From positions 1 to 37,532 of the forward strand of contig WGER01000041.1 in the NCBI GenBank assembly GCA_015492645.1: DNA of 37,532 nt. Direction: 5' to 3'. Both the position numbers and the translations under genes were made by a program. Numbering within the stretch: position 1 is the stretch's first letter; every line of letters begins with the position of its first letter. The stretch comes from Nitrospirota bacterium. Its GTDB lineage: Bacteria; Nitrospirota; Thermodesulfovibrionia; Thermodesulfovibrionales; JdFR-85. Of the stretch, positions 20,733 through 31,950 are shown piece by piece. The notes beneath the pieces were generated by a model. The model ran no database searches. It was not told the DNA's origin and saw only the letters and a list, made by a program, of their open reading frames with translations.

Positions 20733-21476
20733 TCAGAGGAGTCTTTTTAGCCCGATCGGATTGGGAGAGGCCCTCCTGTAGCCCCTCTTCTGTACCACGA
20801 TATCCAGAGGAATGCTTATGAGATCAAGCAGGGCAGGGGTATATTCCTTTAGAAGGGAAATATCAAAACTCTTGAAGTATTTACTGCAACGCTTACAGAT
20901 ATCAGCCCTTATTCCCTCCTGGCCGTCAATGCCTATGATAAAGAGGTCCTCTGGAGTCTCTGTCAGACAGTGAGGACAGCCTATTCTCTTCCAGTAACCA
21001 TTGGTTTCACAATAAGAACACCAGAATCTCCTCTTCTCCTCCCTTCCTATGAGAGACACTGAAGGGTGGGCACCGCAGACCGGACATCTACCCTCCTGCC
21101 AGAATATACCGTTCAATGAGAGCCTCCTCCCTTCCTTCAGAAACATCGGTTTTGACAGCAGAAAAAGGACCGCTTCCATCTGTGCATCCCAGCCCTTTCC
21201 CTCTGCAGGGAGTTCACCAAAGGGCAACCTCCTGAGGTCTATGTCAGCAGTGATGAGCAGTTCCTCAATCTCATCAAGGGCCTCTTTTTCTATGGGAAGG
21301 GCCTCTGATAGGATATCAAGGACCTCTACGAGGTCATCCCTGGTATAAATCCATCTCGTATCAGGTCCATCAGGTACAGAAACATCCAACTGCATCAGTC
21401 TCTGAAGCCTCTGCCAGAGATTCAGTTGTTCAATCAGGTGAGGATGTTCTCTCTTTATCTCCTCTAAATCCTTCAT
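20733..21476 (-). CDS. fdhE: Formate dehydrogenase accessory protein FdhE
   Basis: 247 residues. It has the four CxxC pairs of the FdhE zinc/iron-binding fold: CPVC, CSYC, CPHC and CKRC, at about 132-200, with GFWC-type spacing (RRFWCSYCETNGYWKRIGCP). FdhE is a cytoplasmic chaperone needed for active selenium/molybdenum formate dehydrogenase. It overlaps the cytochrome c peroxidase gene by ATGA and is the last gene of the run that follows the formate dehydrogenase genes, which fits its role. Confidence 0.92.
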   Translation of the reverse strand: MKDLEEIKREHPHLIEQLNLWQRLQRLMQLDVSVPDGPDTRWIYTRDDLVEVLDILSEALPIEKEALDEIEELLITADIDLRRLPFGELPAEGKGWDAQMEAVLFLLSKPMFLKEGRRLSLNGIFWQEGRCPVCGAHPSVSLIGREEKRRFWCSYCETNGYWKRIGCPHCLTETPEDLFIIGIDGQEGIRADICKRCSKYFKSFDISLLKEYTPALLDLISIPLDIVVQKRGYRRASPNPIGLKRLL

Positions 21477-22543
21477 GGCAAATCCGGTGGACTCACAGGC
21501 ACAGTCTCTCCCTGCAGGGCGTCCAGAAGGAATGCCTTCAATGCCTCTTTCTCTTCCCGAGAGAGCCCGAGTGGTTTTAAAAGTTCGGTCTTGTATGGAG
21601 AATCCCCTCCTCCTCTGTCAAAAAAATCAATCACCTCCTCGATATCCTTAAATACGCCATTATGCATATAGGGGCCTGTGAGCGCAAGGTCCCTCAGGGT
21701 TGGTGTCCTGAACGCCTTCCAGTCCCTGGGGTCCTTTGTAACCAAGAAACGACCGGGGTCCTCTGTCAGGAGATTGTAGGCAGTGTAACCCGAGATCTTT
21801 GCAGTAAACTTCATGGTGGCCATAACCCTCGGATCGTTTTTTAGGACGGGATTGTCAGGTACACCCAGATTATAAAACCTGTTGTCTGTGAGATTTGGCC
21901 CATTATGACAGAGCACGCATCTACCCTTTCCAACAAAGATATCTAGCCCTTTCTTCTGAATAGGATTAAGGGCATCTCTGTCACCCATGAGATATCTGTC
22001 CAGGGGACTGTTGCGGGATACTATGGTCCTCTCAAATGCTGCTATAGCCATGGCGATCCTCTCACGGGTTATCTCTCCACCAAATACTACCCTGAAGGCC
22101 TCCACATACTCAGGTACCGCCTTCAACTCCTCCTCAAGGAAGTCGAGGTTCTGGTTCATCTCAAAGGCACTCATTATGGGGAAGAGGGCCTGTTCCTCAA
22201 GGCCCCTTGCCCGGCCATCCCAGAAGAGCGGCCTGCTGAAGGCGACATTAATCAGGGTCGGTGCATTACGCCAGTTCTTGGTGGTGGGATAACTGAGGGA
22301 TATGGCCATCCCATCGGTGTACCCCTTCTCAGGGTTGTGACAGGTGGCACAACTCATCGTTCCGTCCCCTGAAAGACGTCTGTCAAAGAAGAGTTTCTTA
22401 CCGAGTTCGACCTTCTCAGGTGTCACTGGATTGGCGGGATTGTCAGGAACAGTGGTGATAGGCACAAGTTCAGCCCCCCTCACATCGGAAAATCCCAGAA
22501 AGACAATTACAATAATAAAGAAAGCGGCCCTTACAATGGTCAC
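21473..22543 (-). CDS. Di-haem cytochrome c peroxidase (MauG/CcpA family)
   Basis: 356 residues with a signal peptide (about 1-23), hence periplasmic. Two haem c motifs, CATCH (C65, C68, H69) and CVLCH (C209, C212, H213), mark the high- and low-potential haems. NAPTLINVAFSRPLFWDGRA and FRTPTLRDLALTGPYMHNG are typical of bacterial di-haem peroxidases that reduce hydrogen peroxide with electrons from small c-type cytochromes. It starts inside the stop of the seleno-Dsb gene and overlaps fdhE. Its haem attachment would need a maturation system such as the ResB/CcsA pair at 30518-31950. Placement between a seleno-thiol protein and formate dehydrogenase genes suggests periplasmic redox defence. 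Confidence 0.9.
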   Translation of the reverse strand: MTIVRAAFFIIVIVFLGFSDVRGAELVPITTVPDNPANPVTPEKVELGKKLFFDRRLSGDGTMSCATCHNPEKGYTDGMAISLSYPTTKNWRNAPTLINVAFSRPLFWDGRARGLEEQALFPIMSAFEMNQNLDFLEEELKAVPEYVEAFRVVFGGEITRERIAMAIAAFERTIVSRNSPLDRYLMGDRDALNPIQKKGLDIFVGKGRCVLCHNGPNLTDNRFYNLGVPDNPVLKNDPRVMATMKFTAKISGYTAYNLLTEDPGRFLVTKDPRDWKAFRTPTLRDLALTGPYMHNGVFKDIEEVIDFFDRGGGDSPYKTELLKPLGLSREEKEALKAFLLDALQGETVPVSPPDLP

Positions 22544-23127
22544 TTACCCTCCAGTTCCCTGTCTATTATCCTCTTGTAGTATTCGTATGGTGCGTTCCCC
22601 ACCACCTTTATCCCATTTATAAATACAGTGGGGGTATTGTAGAGATCGAGTTTCTTCGCCAGGGCAAGATCCCTCTTTATGATATCCATATGCCTCATAC
22701 CATCTATGTCCCCTCTGAACTTATCCAGATCCAATCCTATCTCCTCTGCATACCTGATCAAACTCTCTCTGTCCAGTTTTGGATAATTCTCATGGAGCAT
22801 CCAGTGCATCTGCCAGAACCTGCCCTCATCACGGGCAGACAGGGCGGCCTCCGCCGCAATAAAGGCGAAGTCTCTGTACTTGTATGGCAAGAATTTTATT
22901 ACAAACCTTATTTTACCTTTATATTCTTCAAGTAATCTCTTAAGGGTCGGACCGACCGCATTACAGTGTGGTCACTGATAATCAAGGAACTCCACCATAA
23001 CCACAGGGGCATCCTCAGGCCCTAATGAAGGGGAGCCCTCAAGAGGAATATCAAACCTCTTCTCTGCTGCATGAACCTGACCAAGAAGGGACAGGAGGAT
23101 CAGAAGATACAATATCCTTCTACGCAT
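22540..23127 (-). CDS. Selenocysteine-containing Dsb/thioredoxin-fold oxidoreductase
   Basis: 195 residues read from the ATG at 23127 with the in-frame UGA at 22974-22972 taken as selenocysteine 52. A signal peptide (RRRILYLLILLSLLGQVHA) targets the periplasm. The thioredoxin fold follows: VVMVEFLDYQ, then U52-P-H-C55, then NAVGPTLKRLLEEYKG, a long helical insert and the cis-proline loop YNTPTVFING. The family normally has CPxC here (for example DYQCPxC), so UGA replaces exactly the attacking cysteine. The frame is open and family-like on both sides. A SECIS-like hairpin starts 18 bases after the UGA. The formate dehydrogenase in the same window also uses UGA. The stop overlaps the peroxidase gene by ATGA. 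Reading it as two fragments would cut the active site. Confidence 0.85.
22932..22964 (-). promoter_or_regulatory. SECIS-like hairpin of the seleno-Dsb gene
   Basis: On the minus strand an outer stem GTAAT/ATTAC (22964-22960, 22936-22932) surrounds an inner stem GGTC/GACC (22957-22954, 22948-22945) with apical loop GGTCC (22953-22949). The loop begins after 18 bases from the UGA, the same distance and a GGU loop as in the classical fdhF element. Confidence 0.65.
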
Positions 23128-23146
23128 CTCTTTGATACCCTTTTAA

Positions 23147-23177
23147 AGAGGGGCGGACCGAGGGGGTCCGCCCCTCT
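23147..23177 (-). terminator. Hairpin terminator or attenuator after the formate dehydrogenase genes
   Basis: 13-bp perfect arms (23165-23177 and 23147-23159) with a 5-base loop, GC-rich, then TTTAAAA on the minus strand. It lies between the cytochrome b stop and the seleno-Dsb start. The short T-run makes partial read-through likely, so downstream genes may be expressed at lower level from the same promoter. Confidence 0.7.
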
Positions 23178-23181
23178 GGAT

Positions 23182-23793
23182 TCATTCTATCCCTATCTCC
23201 TTTGCCCACTTCCTGTGGTGTCTCTTCACCCATGCCCTTGTAACCGTACCTCTGGTCATCGCCCTGAATGTCCCAGGGTTTGCTGCCGTACTGAGGTAGA
23301 TATGCAGCGGTACCGTTGTGACGAAGACGACAAAGGCAAGGTTATGCAGGAAATGGCCAAACCTGAGCCAGCCTGTGCTCTGGGCAAACCAGAGGATAAA
23401 ACCGGTTATGATAATCACCGCACCTGTGAGCACCACCACCAGGAGATAGTAGAGTTTCTGGCCCGCATTCAGTCTGCCCTGTGGTGGTTCTGTAGTTGTC
23501 TTTGAGAGATACCCGCCAAGGGAGGACAGCCACTGGTAGTCTTCCTTGGTAAACCTTATGCTATCTCCGAGGTAACTGCCGAGCGTAAAGAGGACGGAGA
23601 GAGTGAAGACAACCCCTGCCCACTTGTGTATCTCCTTTGCCAGTTGGTTACCACCAAAGATGGTGTTCAGCCAGTTGAGGGAGTTGTAAAGAAAACCAAA
23701 TCCTGTCAATACAAGGACGATGAAACTCAATGCAAGGAGCCAGTGGTTGAACCTCTCCCATCCGGTTGTCCTCTGAACGAGATCATGCCTCAT
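23182..23793 (-). CDS. fdnI: Formate dehydrogenase gamma subunit, cytochrome b
   Basis: 203 residues, a four-helix membrane cytochrome b of the FdnI type that takes electrons from the beta subunit and passes them to quinone. Candidate haem ligands are the histidines in RFNHWLLAL (helix 1), KEIHKWAGVV (helix 2), FGHFLHNLAF and PLHIYLS (helices 3 and 4). The start shares one base with the fdnH stop (TAATG), so translation is coupled. A strong hairpin follows the gene. Confidence 0.9.
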   Translation of the reverse strand: MRHDLVQRTTGWERFNHWLLALSFIVLVLTGFGFLYNSLNWLNTIFGGNQLAKEIHKWAGVVFTLSVLFTLGSYLGDSIRFTKEDYQWLSSLGGYLSKTTTEPPQGRLNAGQKLYYLLVVVLTGAVIIITGFILWFAQSTGWLRFGHFLHNLAFVVFVTTVPLHIYLSTAANPGTFRAMTRGTVTRAWVKRHHRKWAKEIGIE

Positions 23794-24599
23794 TACTCCT
23801 CACCTCCTTCCTCAGGCTCCTTTGGTCCCACGGTAATATAGTGAGCCGCTGCTGCTGCCACGGCGCCTCCGAGTCCGATCAAGGCGAGGGGCTTGAGGAT
23901 GCTCTTCCAGAAGGCCACTGATGCAGGAAGTCCCGGGCTGTCAGGCAGTCCGTAGAATGAGGGAAACTCCTTAAAGGCATACAGCACACCGAGACCACCA
24001 AGGTCCTTCTCTCCATAGACCGCCTCAAACCCTGACGCCTTTGCCATCTGAATCAGTTCATCCCTGTCGCCAAAGGTGAGAGCACCTGTAGGGCAGGTCT
24101 TTGTACAGGCAGGCTCAAGGCCAAAGGCAAGTCTGTCGGCACAGAGGTGACACTTTGAGATCTTCTCTTCGGCATCGTATCTGGGGATGTTGAATGGACA
24201 ACCCGCAAGACAGAACCTGCACCCTATGCACTTCTTCTTATTAAAGGCGACAGCACCCTCAGGGGTCCTGTAGAGTGCACCAGGGGCAGGGCAGACCTTC
24301 ATACAGCCCGCCTCTGTGCAGTGCATACACCTCTGACTTATAAAGAGCCACCTGAGGTGGCCACCCTCTTCCACCTCCACAAACCTTATCTTGTTGTAGA
24401 GGTTTGGGGTAAGGTCCGGGGGGTTCTCATAGGTGCCACGATTAACTGTCCTGTCACCTGGCAGTTTATTCCACTCCTTACAGGCCGTCTGGCATCCCCT
24501 GCAACCTATACAGAGGTCAGGCCTCACAAGGACTCCCTTCTTCCGGGTCTGTATATCAACACCACTGAGTCTCCTCTTTTCAGTCTCGCTCAGTGCCAT
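23793..24599 (-). CDS. fdnH: Formate dehydrogenase beta subunit, iron-sulfur
   Basis: 268 residues. Four [4Fe-4S] clusters are indicated by CIGCRGCQTAC, CMHCTEAGCMKVCP, CIGCRFCLAGCP and CHLCADRL with CTKTCP. A C-terminal membrane helix (about 235-258, KPLALIGLGGAVAAAAAHYI) anchors it, with the clusters on the periplasmic side. AGGAGG is six bases before the ATG at 24599; a GTG one codon earlier is less likely. The order alpha-beta-gamma matches FDH-N/FDH-O operons. Confidence 0.92.
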   Translation of the reverse strand: MALSETEKRRLSGVDIQTRKKGVLVRPDLCIGCRGCQTACKEWNKLPGDRTVNRGTYENPPDLTPNLYNKIRFVEVEEGGHLRWLFISQRCMHCTEAGCMKVCPAPGALYRTPEGAVAFNKKKCIGCRFCLAGCPFNIPRYDAEEKISKCHLCADRLAFGLEPACTKTCPTGALTFGDRDELIQMAKASGFEAVYGEKDLGGLGVLYAFKEFPSFYGLPDSPGLPASVAFWKSILKPLALIGLGGAVAAAAAHYITVGPKEPEEGGEE

Positions 24600-24609
24600 C
24601 ACACACCTC

Positions 24610-27600
24610 CTATGCCTTCTCGATGTTGACCATAAAGGCCTTTGTCTCGGGTATCATGGTGTTGGCATCTCCTATGGTGGGTGTGAGGAGGTTCGAGGAG
24701 TCTCCACTACTGCCGTCCTCTGGATACTGCCACCCAAAACACCAGGGGAGACCGACCTGATGCACAGTAGTATTCATTATCTTGAATGGTTTCAGCCTCT
24801 TGGTGACGATGGCAATCGCCCAGACCTTTCCACGGGCAGAGGAGACTATCACCTTGTCACCGCTCTTTATCCCCTTCTCCTTCGCCAGTTCCTCACTGAT
24901 CTCCACGAAGTTCTGGGGCATCATCTCCAATTGCCAGGGCAGATGCCTAGTGAGCACCCCTGTCTGCCAGTGTTCTGTCACCCTGTAGGTGGTCGCCACA
25001 TAGGGATAGCGGGTATCACAGGTGGCAAAGACATCCTCTGGCTTTGGTCCCTGCTCTGCAGGTGCATCAGGACCTTTTACAGGCCAGAAGAGTTTTACTG
25101 TGGGGTTAATGCGGTGCTTCTTTGATAGGGGATTCTCCTGTATCGGGCACTCCAAGGGTTCATAATGCTCCGGGAATGGTCCATCTGCCCTGCCAGGGCC
25201 GAAGATGTGGCCAACACCGGCAGGCTTCATAATAAAGGGTAGTCTTGTCTTTCCCCTGTTTACCATGGGAGGCCAGCCACCATCAGGTACATCTCCGACC
25301 CATCTGGAGCCATTCCACCATATAACGGGTCTCTTCGGATCTCTTGGTCTGCCCTCAAGATCAACTGAGGCCCGGTTGTAGAGTATCCTCCTGTTCAATG
25401 GCCAGCACCAGGCCCACTCAGGATAAAACCCCATTCCTGTGGGGTCTTTTTTGGAACGGCGGGCCATCATGTTACCCTCTTCTGTGTAGGAACCACTGTA
25501 TAGCCAGTTGCCGCAGGCGGTAGAGCCATCCTCCTGTAGATAAACAAAATTGGGTACCAGTTGGCCCTTCTTGAATTGTCTGCCCTTTACAACCCGGTCC
25601 TCTGTAAAATAGCCATTTATCTCTTTCGCTATAGCATGGGGATCCATCCTGATCACCTTCCCTTCAGGGTCCTTGGGGCCGTAATCCCAGGAGAGGTTCA
25701 CCACAGGCTCAGGAAAGGTCCCACCTTCCTTCTCATAGAGTCTCTTCACCCTCCAGTACAGTTCATTTATTATCCAGGAGTCCGGTTTCGCCTCGCCTGG
25801 TGGGTCCACCGCCTTGTATCTCCACTGGGCCCACCTACCCGAGTTAGTGATGCTGCCCTCCTTCTCACAGGATGCAGCAGCAGGCAGTTGAAAGACCTCG
25901 GTCTTTATCTCCTCTGGCTTCATGTCAGGCCCCCGCCAGAAAGAGCCTGTCTCGTTATCAAAGAGGTTCACATTTACCATCCATTCCAGTTTTGTAAGGG
26001 CCTTTCTCACCTTTCCCGCATTGGAACCTGAACAGGCGGGGTTCTGACCCCAGGCGAAGAACCCCTTGAATTTCCCCTGGTACATCTCATCAAAGAGCAT
26101 CAGCCACGAGGCGTTCTGTCCATCATCCAGTTTGGGAAGCCACTGATAGCCGAACTCATTCTCAGGAGTCGCCCTGTCTCCGAAGAAGGCCTTAAGAAGA
26201 CTCACAGAGTACTTGGGATAATTCCCCCACCAGTTGGCACTCATCGGTTCCTTTGTCTTGGGGGTATACTTATCGTTGTAGTCTTTCAGGGTCTGCTGGG
26301 ATGCCCTCGGGGTCTTCAGATACCCCGGCAGGATATGAAACAGCAGACAGTGATCAGTAGAGCCCTGCACATTGGACTCACCCCTCAGGGCGTTCACCCC
26401 TCCGCCGGCAACCCCGATGTTGCCGAGTAGTAACTGGATTATGGCCATCGCCCTTATTATCTGTGTACCAACGGTATGCTGGGTCCATCCCATGGCATAC
26501 ATTATGGTCGCCTTTCTGTCAGGTCTGCCTGTGGAGGCATAGGCCTTATACACCTCGAGGAGTTTGTCCTTTGGGGTGCCTGTGATCTTCTCCACCATCT
26601 CAAGGGTGTAACGGGAGACATGCTTCTTCAGGAGTTGAAAGACACAGTGTGGGTCCTGGAGGGTGAAGTCCTTCTTTATAACGCCGTTTTCATCTGTTTG
26701 AAAACGCCAGGTACTCTTGTCGTATCTCCTCTTCTCCGGGTCATAGCCAGAGAATACCCCATCCAGTTCCCCTGGCATCTTGAAGTCGGGATTCACCAGG
26801 AATGGTGCATTCGTATAGTACTTCACATAGAACTCGTCATAGAGTTTATTCTCTATTATGTAGTTGATCATCCCGTTCAGGAAGGCGATATCAGAGCCTG
26901 AACGGAGCGGTGCATATATATCCGCCTTTGCTGAGGTCCTTGTGAATCTGGGATCAACACTGATCAGGGTTGCACCCCTCTTCTTTGCCTCCATCACCCA
27001 CTTAAATGAAATAGGATGGTTTTCCGCAGCATTGGAACCCATGATGAGGATCACATCCGCATTGCGGATGTCGATCCAGTGGTTTGTCATCGCCCCTCTG
27101 CCGAACGACTCTGCCAGAGCCGCTACAGTGGCAGAGTGTCATATCCTGGCCTGGTGTTCAATATAGACAAGCCCTAAGGACCTGAGCCACTTCTGAAGTA
27201 TATAACACTCCTCATTGTCAAGGGCGGCACTACCCACATGGGCGATCCCGTCACAGCGGTTAACCACCTGCCCCTTCTCATTACGGATCACAAAGGTCTC
27301 ATCACGGGTCTTCTTGATCCTCTTTGCGATCTCGTCAAGGGCCCAGTCCCAGTCCACCTCCTTCCACTCCTTTGCACCTGGTGCACGATAACGGGGCCTG
27401 GTGAGCCTCTTCGGATTATTCACGATCTGGTAAAGGGCAGCACCCTTTGAGCAGAGGGTCCCCTCATTGATAGGATGATCAGGGTCTCCTTCGGTGTTGA
27501 TCACTTTACCATCCTGAGAATGGACTATAATGCCACAACCGACGGCACAGAAGGGACAGATTGTTGTTGTCTCTTTAGCATACTTAATGGGAAGGGTCTC

Positions 27601-27696
27601 TGCATAGGTACGGGCGGGCTTCAGGTCAAACCCTGCGACACCTGCAAGAAGTGTCGTTGCTGTTGCCTTTAAAAAGGTTCTTCTTGAGACCTCCAT
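24610..27696 (-). CDS. fdnG: Selenocysteine formate dehydrogenase alpha subunit, periplasmic
   Basis: 1028 residues when the in-frame UGA at 27141-27139 is read as selenocysteine 186. A Tat signal (SRRTFLK) exports the folded enzyme. C47, C50, C54 and C82 bind a [4Fe-4S] cluster (CPFCAVGC, LCSKG). U186 lies in YIEHQARI-U-HSATVAALAESFGRG, the exact place of selenocysteine in FdnG, where it ligates molybdenum or tungsten. GRGAMTNHWIDIRNADVIL and the C-terminal molybdopterin domain are typical. The length is close to the usual 1015 or so. Taking the downstream ATG in AMTNHW as a start would lose the active site. It oxidises formate and passes electrons to FdnH and FdnI. Confidence 0.96.
27108..27137 (-). 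promoter_or_regulatory. SECIS hairpin of the formate dehydrogenase gene
   Basis: A perfect 9-bp stem ACTCTGCCA/TGGCAGAGT (27137-27129, 27116-27108) begins one base after the UGA. It encloses a 12-base loop, CTGTAGCGGCTC, with GGCT located 18-21 bases from the UGA. Confidence 0.65.
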
Positions 27697-30517: not shown

Positions 30518-31243
30518 TCAGACCTTTTGGGAGTATTTCACTCTGAGCAAAAGGAGCATAATGGTTCCAACTGTGAAAAAGACCGCTCCGGCCAATGCCC
30601 AATAGGCACCAGGTTCCTTTGACACCTCAAGGAGGACCCTCTCCTGAGGAAAGACCCTGAAGTCCTTCAGGTATATACCAACGCCCCCTATGAAGACGGG
30701 TCTGTTAGGGCTCAGGTACAGGTCTCTTCTTCTCTCACCCTCTATAAGGCGTATCAACGCCTTTGCCTCGGTGATAAATCCCTTTTTGGTGGAATATCTG
30801 AGATTGAGGAAGCGGACCTCATGGTCAGTGCCGAGCCTTATTGCCTGTCCCTCTGCAAGCAGATAAAAGAGGTGATAACTGCCTATACTGCTCATGAGAT
30901 GACCGAACATGATGAGGCAGAAGCCGAGGTGAATAATCTGCGAGGAGATCTTCAACAGGAGTCCCTGTCTCTTTGCGAGTCTCAATATGGATTCTGCTGT
31001 ACAGACAACCGTGTTCAGGACCACCAGCCCTACTATAAACATTGATACCCAGAGCCACCATGTTATACTCAGTGGGGTCTCAGTAAGCCATTCCAGAAGC
31101 GGACCTTGATTTATCCCTCTGTAGGCACTGTTATTGGAGATCGCAAACCCGCCATAAAGCATGACCAGAAAGAGAAGACCTGTCAAGACTGAAGCGGTCT
31201 TCACTGATCTTAGAACATTTATCAAAAGGAAAAGATACCTCAT
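30518..31243 (-). CDS. resB: ResB-like cytochrome c biogenesis protein (short form)
   Basis: 241 residues with about four membrane helices (about 12-35, 58-80, 98-118, 214-236) and a periplasmic domain before the last helix. It resembles a reduced ResB/Ccs1, the partner of CcsA in system II haem attachment. Full ResB proteins are often 400 residues or more. The ATG shares one base with the ccsA stop (TGATG). It lies tail to tail with the ATPase gene, with a 34-base gap and no clear terminator. Confidence 0.75.
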   Translation of the reverse strand: MRYLFLLINVLRSVKTASVLTGLLFLVMLYGGFAISNNSAYRGINQGPLLEWLTETPLSITWWLWVSMFIVGLVVLNTVVCTAESILRLAKRQGLLLKISSQIIHLGFCLIMFGHLMSSIGSYHLFYLLAEGQAIRLGTDHEVRFLNLRYSTKKGFITEAKALIRLIEGERRRDLYLSPNRPVFIGGVGIYLKDFRVFPQERVLLEVSKEPGAYWALAGAVFFTVGTIMLLLLRVKYSQKV

Positions 31244-31950
31244 CAGAAACTATGGGAACTCTTCATAAGAAGCCCTACACCAAGATAGGTGAAGATTACA
31301 ACCAGATATCCCAGCAGGGCCATAATTGAGGAGAGCCTCTCTCTTAATCGAACTATAAGCCTTAGATGTAAGTAAATGGTATAAAAGAGCCAGAGCAGGG
31401 TTGTCCATATCTCCTTTGGGGTGTACAGCCAGTAGGTGCCCCAGGCGAGATATGCCCATATCCCACCAAAGATCATTGAGACTGAGAAGAAGAGATATCC
31501 AAGAAGCAACACCCTGTACTGCACAGGTTCAGATCCCTGCAATTTACCCACCAACTGGAGACCTCCCAACAGACCCCCTATCCCGAACAGTGCATAGGAG
31601 AGGAATGACAGGACAACGTGGAGTTCAAACCAGAATGTCCTCAGTACTGGTGGAAGGGGTGTGTTAACAGGTCTCGATAGTGTACCAACAATGGTGAGGA
31701 GAAAACAGAGACCCGCCACTGTCTGAAGGAAAGTGGCCCTTTTATGTACAAATCCTGCCACCACTACTCCAAAGATGGCGGTCGAGAATGCCAGAAATAG
31801 AACGGTGTCGTGTACTCCCACAAGGGGCAACCTCTCAAGGGTTATGCCCCTCCAGAGAAGATATCCTGATTGAACTACCACCGCAGCAAATAAGAAGATC
31901 CGATAATGGATACCGAACAGATAGAGCCCTGCCGAAAGCGGAACTATCAT
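31243..31950 (-). CDS. ccsA: CcsA/ResC-like haem handling protein for cytochrome c assembly
   Basis: 235 residues, about seven to eight membrane helices, of the CcmC/CcsA haem-handling family. Conserved histidines are H111 (FWFELHVVLSF) and H195 (IYLHLRL). The haem-presenting WWD loop, usually WGxYWGWDPKE, reads WGTYWLYTPKEIW (170-182). The second Trp is Tyr and the Asp is Thr. With resB immediately downstream it would form a system II synthetase for the peroxidase and other c-type cytochromes. It may be a specialised or partly inactive version. It overlaps the GlcD gene by 4 bases. Confidence 0.85.
   Translation of the reverse strand: MIVPLSAGLYLFGIHYRIFLFAAVVVQSGYLLWRGITLERLPLVGVHDTVLFLAFSTAIFGVVVAGFVHKRATFLQTVAGLCFLLTIVGTLSRPVNTPLPPVLRTFWFELHVVLSFLSYALFGIGGLLGGLQLVGKLQGSEPVQYRVLLLGYLFFSVSMIFGGIWAYLAWGTYWLYTPKEIWTTLLWLFYTIYLHLRLIVRLRERLSSIMALLGYLVVIFTYLGVGLLMKSSHSF

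Follow-up and report, generated by a model that had tools for sequence, protein, structure and literature searches.

DsbA-like selenoproteins with a UxxC active site (PF01323) are known by prediction, and they appeared already in the Sargasso Sea paper of 2005, as DsbA-like (PMC1088965), and in the GOS paper, as DsbA 1 and DsbA 2 (PMC2398784). Reviews list a DsbA-like form 1 (PF01323, UxxC), a DsbA-like form 2 and a DsbG-like protein (NF041057). The DsbA-like selenoproteins are described as largely uncharacterised in function, and in nearly all selenoprotein families the Cys homologues are far more abundant (PMC13188914).

The gene described here, which we call seDsb, lies in a window of 37,532 nucleotides (the whole stretch of DNA analysed, contig WGER01000041.1 of a Nitrospirota bacterium), and its predicted product shares with the DsbA-like UxxC selenoproteins of PF01323 the DSBA fold, a Sec as the first residue of the active-site motif and a bacterial SECIS-type element. 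It is set apart from them (listed example NIP15863.1) by description, as it has Sec in all orthologues seen, is paired with a di-haem peroxidase and occurs in fdn operons. The likeness to NF041057 (Rcas_1661 family thioredoxin-like (seleno)lipoprotein) extends to the thioredoxin-like domain and the UxxC motif (E 5e-24), but only positions 79-246 of the 247 in the model are matched, and membership of this family was rejected because the score of 85.1 bits falls below the curated cut-off of 190. In the openly licensed literature we found no prior description of the seDsb subfamily, of Sec in every copy seen or of the operon cassette presented below, and no report linking such a Dsb selenoprotein to formate dehydrogenase or to a peroxidase. 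The first-pass annotation had called the gene a probable new selenoprotein, which is partly right: it may hold for the subfamily and its cassette, whereas DsbA- and DsbG-like UxxC proteins as such have been known since 2005.

The coordinates given for the gene in that annotation are correct and place it on the minus strand (Table 1), as seen when the frame was read again with TGA translated as U, which gives MRRRILYLLILLSLLGQVHA-AEKRF...VEFLDYQUPHCNAVG...NTPTVFING...ELEGK. The UGA occupies the first active-site Cys (U52-P-H-C55), and it shares one frame with a putative signal peptide and a cis-Pro loop (T165-P166), an arrangement already proposed and now borne out by reading. In Pfam the Thioredoxin_4 match spans both flanks of the internal UGA (E 3e-25, residues 31-189). 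The DSBA domain PF01323 was also recognised (E 1.6e-15, 57.8 bits against a cut-off of 25.6), with Sec at its first active-site Cys. Structure prediction, carried out for the window and for loci L051-L055, gave an AlphaFold model of seDsb with a pLDDT of 89, and the best solved structures found for it by Foldseek, in agreement with the sequence search, were 3gyk of Silicibacter pomeroyi and BdbD of Bacillus subtilis (3eu3/3eu4), with TM values of 0.81/0.84 and ∼25-29% identity to seDsb. Both BdbD and 3gyk are ordinary Cys proteins. According to this, the product is predicted to be exported and to adopt a DsbA/BdbD-like fold with a U-P-H-C active site, and the label 'Dsb-like oxidoreductase' suits the fold of this predicted redox protein. 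A plasmid search yielded nothing but distant thioredoxin-domain matches below 40% identity.

Table 1. Positions of seDsb, its sequence elements and the neighbouring genes in the window
Feature	Position	Strand	Basis or remark
fdhE-like formate dehydrogenase accessory gene	20733..21476	(-)	profile matches
Di-haem cytochrome c peroxidase / MauG-MbnH-like gene, two CXXCH	21473..22543	(-)	CCP_MauG match
seDsb, UGA-containing, 195 aa, predicted secreted DsbA/BdbD-fold protein	22540..23127	(-)	coding 23127-22543, stop TGA 22542-22540
Putative SECIS core, stem GGUC/GACC, loop GGUCC (or 5 bp, GUC triloop)	22945..22957	(-)	comparative
In-frame UGA, predicted Sec52 of seDsb	22972..22974	(-)	same column in 40 aligned orthologues; TGA in all ∼65 phylum-scan orthologues
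Putative signal peptide of seDsb, ∼residues 1-20 (RRR, hydrophobic core, VHA)	23068..23127	(-)	sequence reading
GC-rich hairpin between fdnI and seDsb	23145..23180	(-)	-32.1 kcal/mol for 63-nt segment, z -5.1
fdnI-like formate dehydrogenase cytochrome b subunit	23182..23793	(-)	TIGR01583 above cut-off
fdnH-like iron-sulfur subunit	23793..24602	(-)	profile matches
fdnG, formate dehydrogenase-N alpha subunit, in-frame UGA 27141-27139 (U186)	24610..27696	(-)	profile match and reading

Besides the copy in the window, full-length orthologues of seDsb were found in 34 of 100 relatives, with 49-64% identity and exactly one TGA each, and two further relatives carry the gene in pieces. A scan of the phylum (396 genomes) returned ∼65 matches of at least 264 bits, every one of them with the TGA; a few contain an extra stop codon, which we took to lie at or beyond the gene end. 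The orthologues whose source is named come mostly from Nitrospirota MAGs, one being labelled Deferribacteres. Matches of the next tier, scoring less than ∼190 bits, include both Cys proteins (CPYC, CPFC) and other Sec groups (UPYC, UPFC) at this position; the homologues compared across the UGA have either UGA or Cys there, with no deletion or other residue among them. A tree built from 62 domains placed all 40 aligned orthologues, in which the UGA column is invariant, in a single clade (100/99) composed entirely of Sec members; the UPYC protein of G245 was its sister, and the Cys members fell outside. The phylum also holds other UxxC DsbA-like groups (L112-L118, L122, L124, L125), among them a UPYC group whose proteins have ∼300 aa and an extended N-terminal region, and a UPFC group of ∼210-280 aa, while L107 and L111 encode a tandem pair of DsbA-like domains, the first without a CXXC motif. 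One relative (G083) has a seDsb orthologue with the UGA, yet no SelB was found in its assembly at E 1e-80, perhaps owing to an assembly gap.

The hairpin that follows the UGA is, on comparative grounds, a predicted SECIS element under constraint. The element with a GGU loop had been placed 18 bases downstream, which is right for the apical loop (22953-22951), starting exactly 18 nt past the UGA, but not for the stem, which starts at ∼14 nt. Across the 40 orthologues, codons +5 to +9 past the UGA show a synonymous (third-position) diversity of 0.05-0.09, compared to 0.69 ± 0.06 (minimum 0.53) in 67 other columns. Gly+7 is encoded by GGT in 38 of 39 orthologues and Pro+8 by CCG in 39 of 40, against 25% of the Gly codons and 40% gene-wide, respectively. 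Protein conservation does not explain this low diversity, since Gly and Pro residues that are invariant elsewhere in the protein show free codon choice. Furthermore, stem pairing is preserved among the orthologues through U-A/C-G and G-C/U-A changes, and in the 8-bp version of the hairpin two of five covariation measures were not above shuffles (both-side changes, 158/500; further pair types, 185/500). Bacterial SECIS elements are described as having a loop of 3-9 nt with G in the first two positions, a stem of 4-16 bp, a distance of 16-37 nt from the UGA and an MFE of at most -7.5 kcal/mol (PMC13188914). The seDsb hairpin lies within this geometry (loop GGUCC or GUC, 4-5 bp, 18-19 nt from the UGA), and its folding energy is borderline, at -6.0 kcal/mol for 26 nt and -7.5 for a 52-nt segment. 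As this energy is no better than that of shuffled sequences, the case for a SECIS relies on the comparison. A search of Rfam gave no SECIS match at seDsb, and at the fdnG UGA the SECIS_3 match was below threshold (21.8 bits vs 63).

The means to make selenocysteine are present in the same assembly, where all of selA, selB, selC and selD were found, the tRNA-Sec having the anticodon UCA. The gene for SelD (G000:C82:106424-107338, L017) has an in-frame TGA, so SelD is probably a selenoprotein itself, and the formate dehydrogenase upstream of seDsb does contain a UGA in frame, as had been noted. Two features by which bacterial selenoproteins are recognised occur together: a conserved UGA at a redox site where homologues have Cys, and SelA, SelB, SelD and tRNA-Sec in the same genome. 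From the sequences compared, seDsb is almost certainly a selenoprotein, and the original claim gains strong support from the invariant TGA, the Sec machinery and the SECIS constraint; the UGA at 22974-22972 would be decoded as Sec by SelB and tRNA-Sec by means of the hairpin just downstream. A genuine stop in a decayed or sequencing-damaged DsbA seems very improbable to us. It is true that seDsb itself terminates with UGA, which is therefore an ordinary stop codon here, and that decayed copies are present in relatives (G058, G033, G004), but the TGA is invariant in dozens of genomes, which also answers the possibility of a misread TGC or TGT, the protein is conserved on both flanks, a constrained hairpin sits at SECIS distance, and real decay has a different appearance. 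Sequencing error, a pseudogene and chance were each rejected in view of the TGA in the 40 aligned and ∼65 phylum orthologues. Decoding by a non-Sec tRNA (Trp, Cys or Gly read-through) is hardly credible in a genome with the full Sec machinery and with a SECIS-like constraint after the UGA, when relatives have Cys at this position and several sister groups are UxxC.

With regard to its surroundings, seDsb follows fdnGHI and has the gene overlaps of the proposed translational coupling to the peroxidase and to FdhE: the peroxidase gene begins with a GTG that overlaps the stop TGA of seDsb, and the peroxidase gene and fdhE overlap by 4 nt. Among PDB entries the peroxidase most resembles the bacterial cytochrome c peroxidases of the 3hq6 series, and it scores under the curated cut-offs of both MauG and MbnH. 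The strong GC-rich hairpin between fdnI and seDsb is a candidate terminator, attenuator or processing site, and because of its position co-transcription with fdnGHI is not guaranteed; it is absent from the terminator-pattern list, and an Rfam Xoo2 match that stays below threshold (36.3 bits vs 45) overlaps it. Genes of the ResB- and CcsB-like type for cytochrome c maturation lie upstream (window 30518-31950).

The peroxidase gene comes directly after seDsb in 25 of the 25 loci examined, in most of which fdnGHI or an NrfD-type variant (fdnGH-nrfD; the NrfD-type subunit was identified in one locus, L089) precedes seDsb and fdhE often follows. G036 has its fdn genes at another place in the genome, and the peroxidase, fdhE and a moeA-like gene are still beside seDsb. 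A peroxidase orthologue was found in 34 of 101 relatives, all 34 of which belong to the 37 seDsb genomes (Fisher p 9e-24, counting relatives as independent); this value, like the other Fisher p-value (6e-10), is too small because the genomes share ancestry. Three genomes have seDsb and no peroxidase orthologue, namely G098, G062 and G058, and in G058 there is a frameshifted copy. FdnG is encoded in 37 of 37 seDsb genomes, and 28 of 65 FdnG genomes have no seDsb, one of them in the same genus with an FdnG 90% identical. Twelve fdn loci were read, those of G058 and of 11 genomes without an intact pair. In 6 of these 11 (G001, G003, G008, G038, G074, and G089) fdhE follows fdn and no cassette was detected at E 0.01, the gap of G008 containing a likely C-terminal fragment of the peroxidase; in G033 fragments of seDsb and peroxidase are joined by a deletion, and G004 retains a seDsb fragment. 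These remnants and the pairless fdn loci indicate that the pair was lost together and that formate dehydrogenase manages without it, and the differing remnants lend further support to co-loss beyond the p-values. An apparent seDsb-peroxidase fusion in G087 (L050; 559-aa frame) was set aside as a likely frameshift artefact, since the two parts meet at seven consecutive A next to an ATG in another frame. Judged from gene order and distribution, seDsb and the peroxidase form a predicted accessory cassette in formate-dehydrogenase operons, and their shared gain and loss suggests a working pair; a functional pairing of seDsb with the adjacent di-haem peroxidase is likely.

As to the role of the pair, the probable task of seDsb is to service the peroxidase in the periplasm or to act as its partner there, and the substrate and the direction of electron flow that we infer are as follows. 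Sec52 and Cys55 would act as a selenenylsulfide / selenol-thiol couple recharged by a CcdA/DsbD membrane reductant, and the reduced protein would act on thiols or on oxidised Cys/Sec of the c-type di-haem peroxidase with its CXXCH motifs, and possibly also reduce the selenium-containing formate dehydrogenase; this activity would form part of periplasmic peroxide protection, which presumably links it to oxidative stress. In the genome of the window, the sole genome searched, no DsbB or VKOR was found at E 0.001 and CcdA/DsbD_TM was; a second Dsb selenoprotein candidate is also present there (G000:C1:26500-28500, L123:528-1337), a DsbC-like protein with DsbC_N and an in-frame TGA at UPFC. Taken together, the three favour a reductive or repair role. 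The CPHC sequence is the active site of the oxidising DsbA, and the DsbA-like dipeptide of UPHC in seDsb speaks against such a role; we would give the reductive direction itself slightly less than an even chance.

The same fold and dipeptide would fit a DsbA-type oxidase introducing disulfides into periplasmic proteins, which we regard as unlikely with DsbB and VKOR not found in the genome of the window and with a distribution locked to one peroxidase rather than general. Given the DsbA-like UPHC motif and a neighbour that uses peroxide, electrons could conceivably flow the other way, with seDsb being oxidised by the peroxidase: the di-haem enzyme would take the place of DsbB/VKOR and restore the Se-S bond with hydrogen peroxide, which would account for the strict co-occurrence, the co-loss and the lack of DsbB/VKOR in this genome. 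It is an improbable scheme and, if true, would amount to a peroxide-driven periplasmic oxidative-folding couple. A further possibility is that the client is formate dehydrogenase, seDsb serving FdnGHI maturation or repair with the peroxidase as a mere neighbour. The fdn genes upstream in most loci, the fdhE downstream in many, the presence of FdnG in every seDsb genome and the fdhE and moeA-like genes that still follow in G036 are in keeping with it; however, the FdnG genomes without seDsb, including the same-genus one, mean that seDsb is not needed for formate dehydrogenase, and the link of seDsb to the peroxidase is tighter than that to fdn, so that this is a rather doubtful explanation. The reading of seDsb as a Sec-fixed DsbA/BdbD-fold protein that has the peroxidase as its partner in reductive periplasmic peroxide protection is, as a whole, the one we consider likely.

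The gene is split at the UGA by the standard genetic code. Read through, it adds to the known selenoproteins a well-supported subfamily with an unusually clear SECIS constraint, and as no Cys version was seen inside the seDsb clade, unlike nearly all families, it is well suited to studying why Sec is retained. Moreover, the linked gain and loss with the di-haem peroxidase provides a testable partner for DsbA-like selenoproteins.
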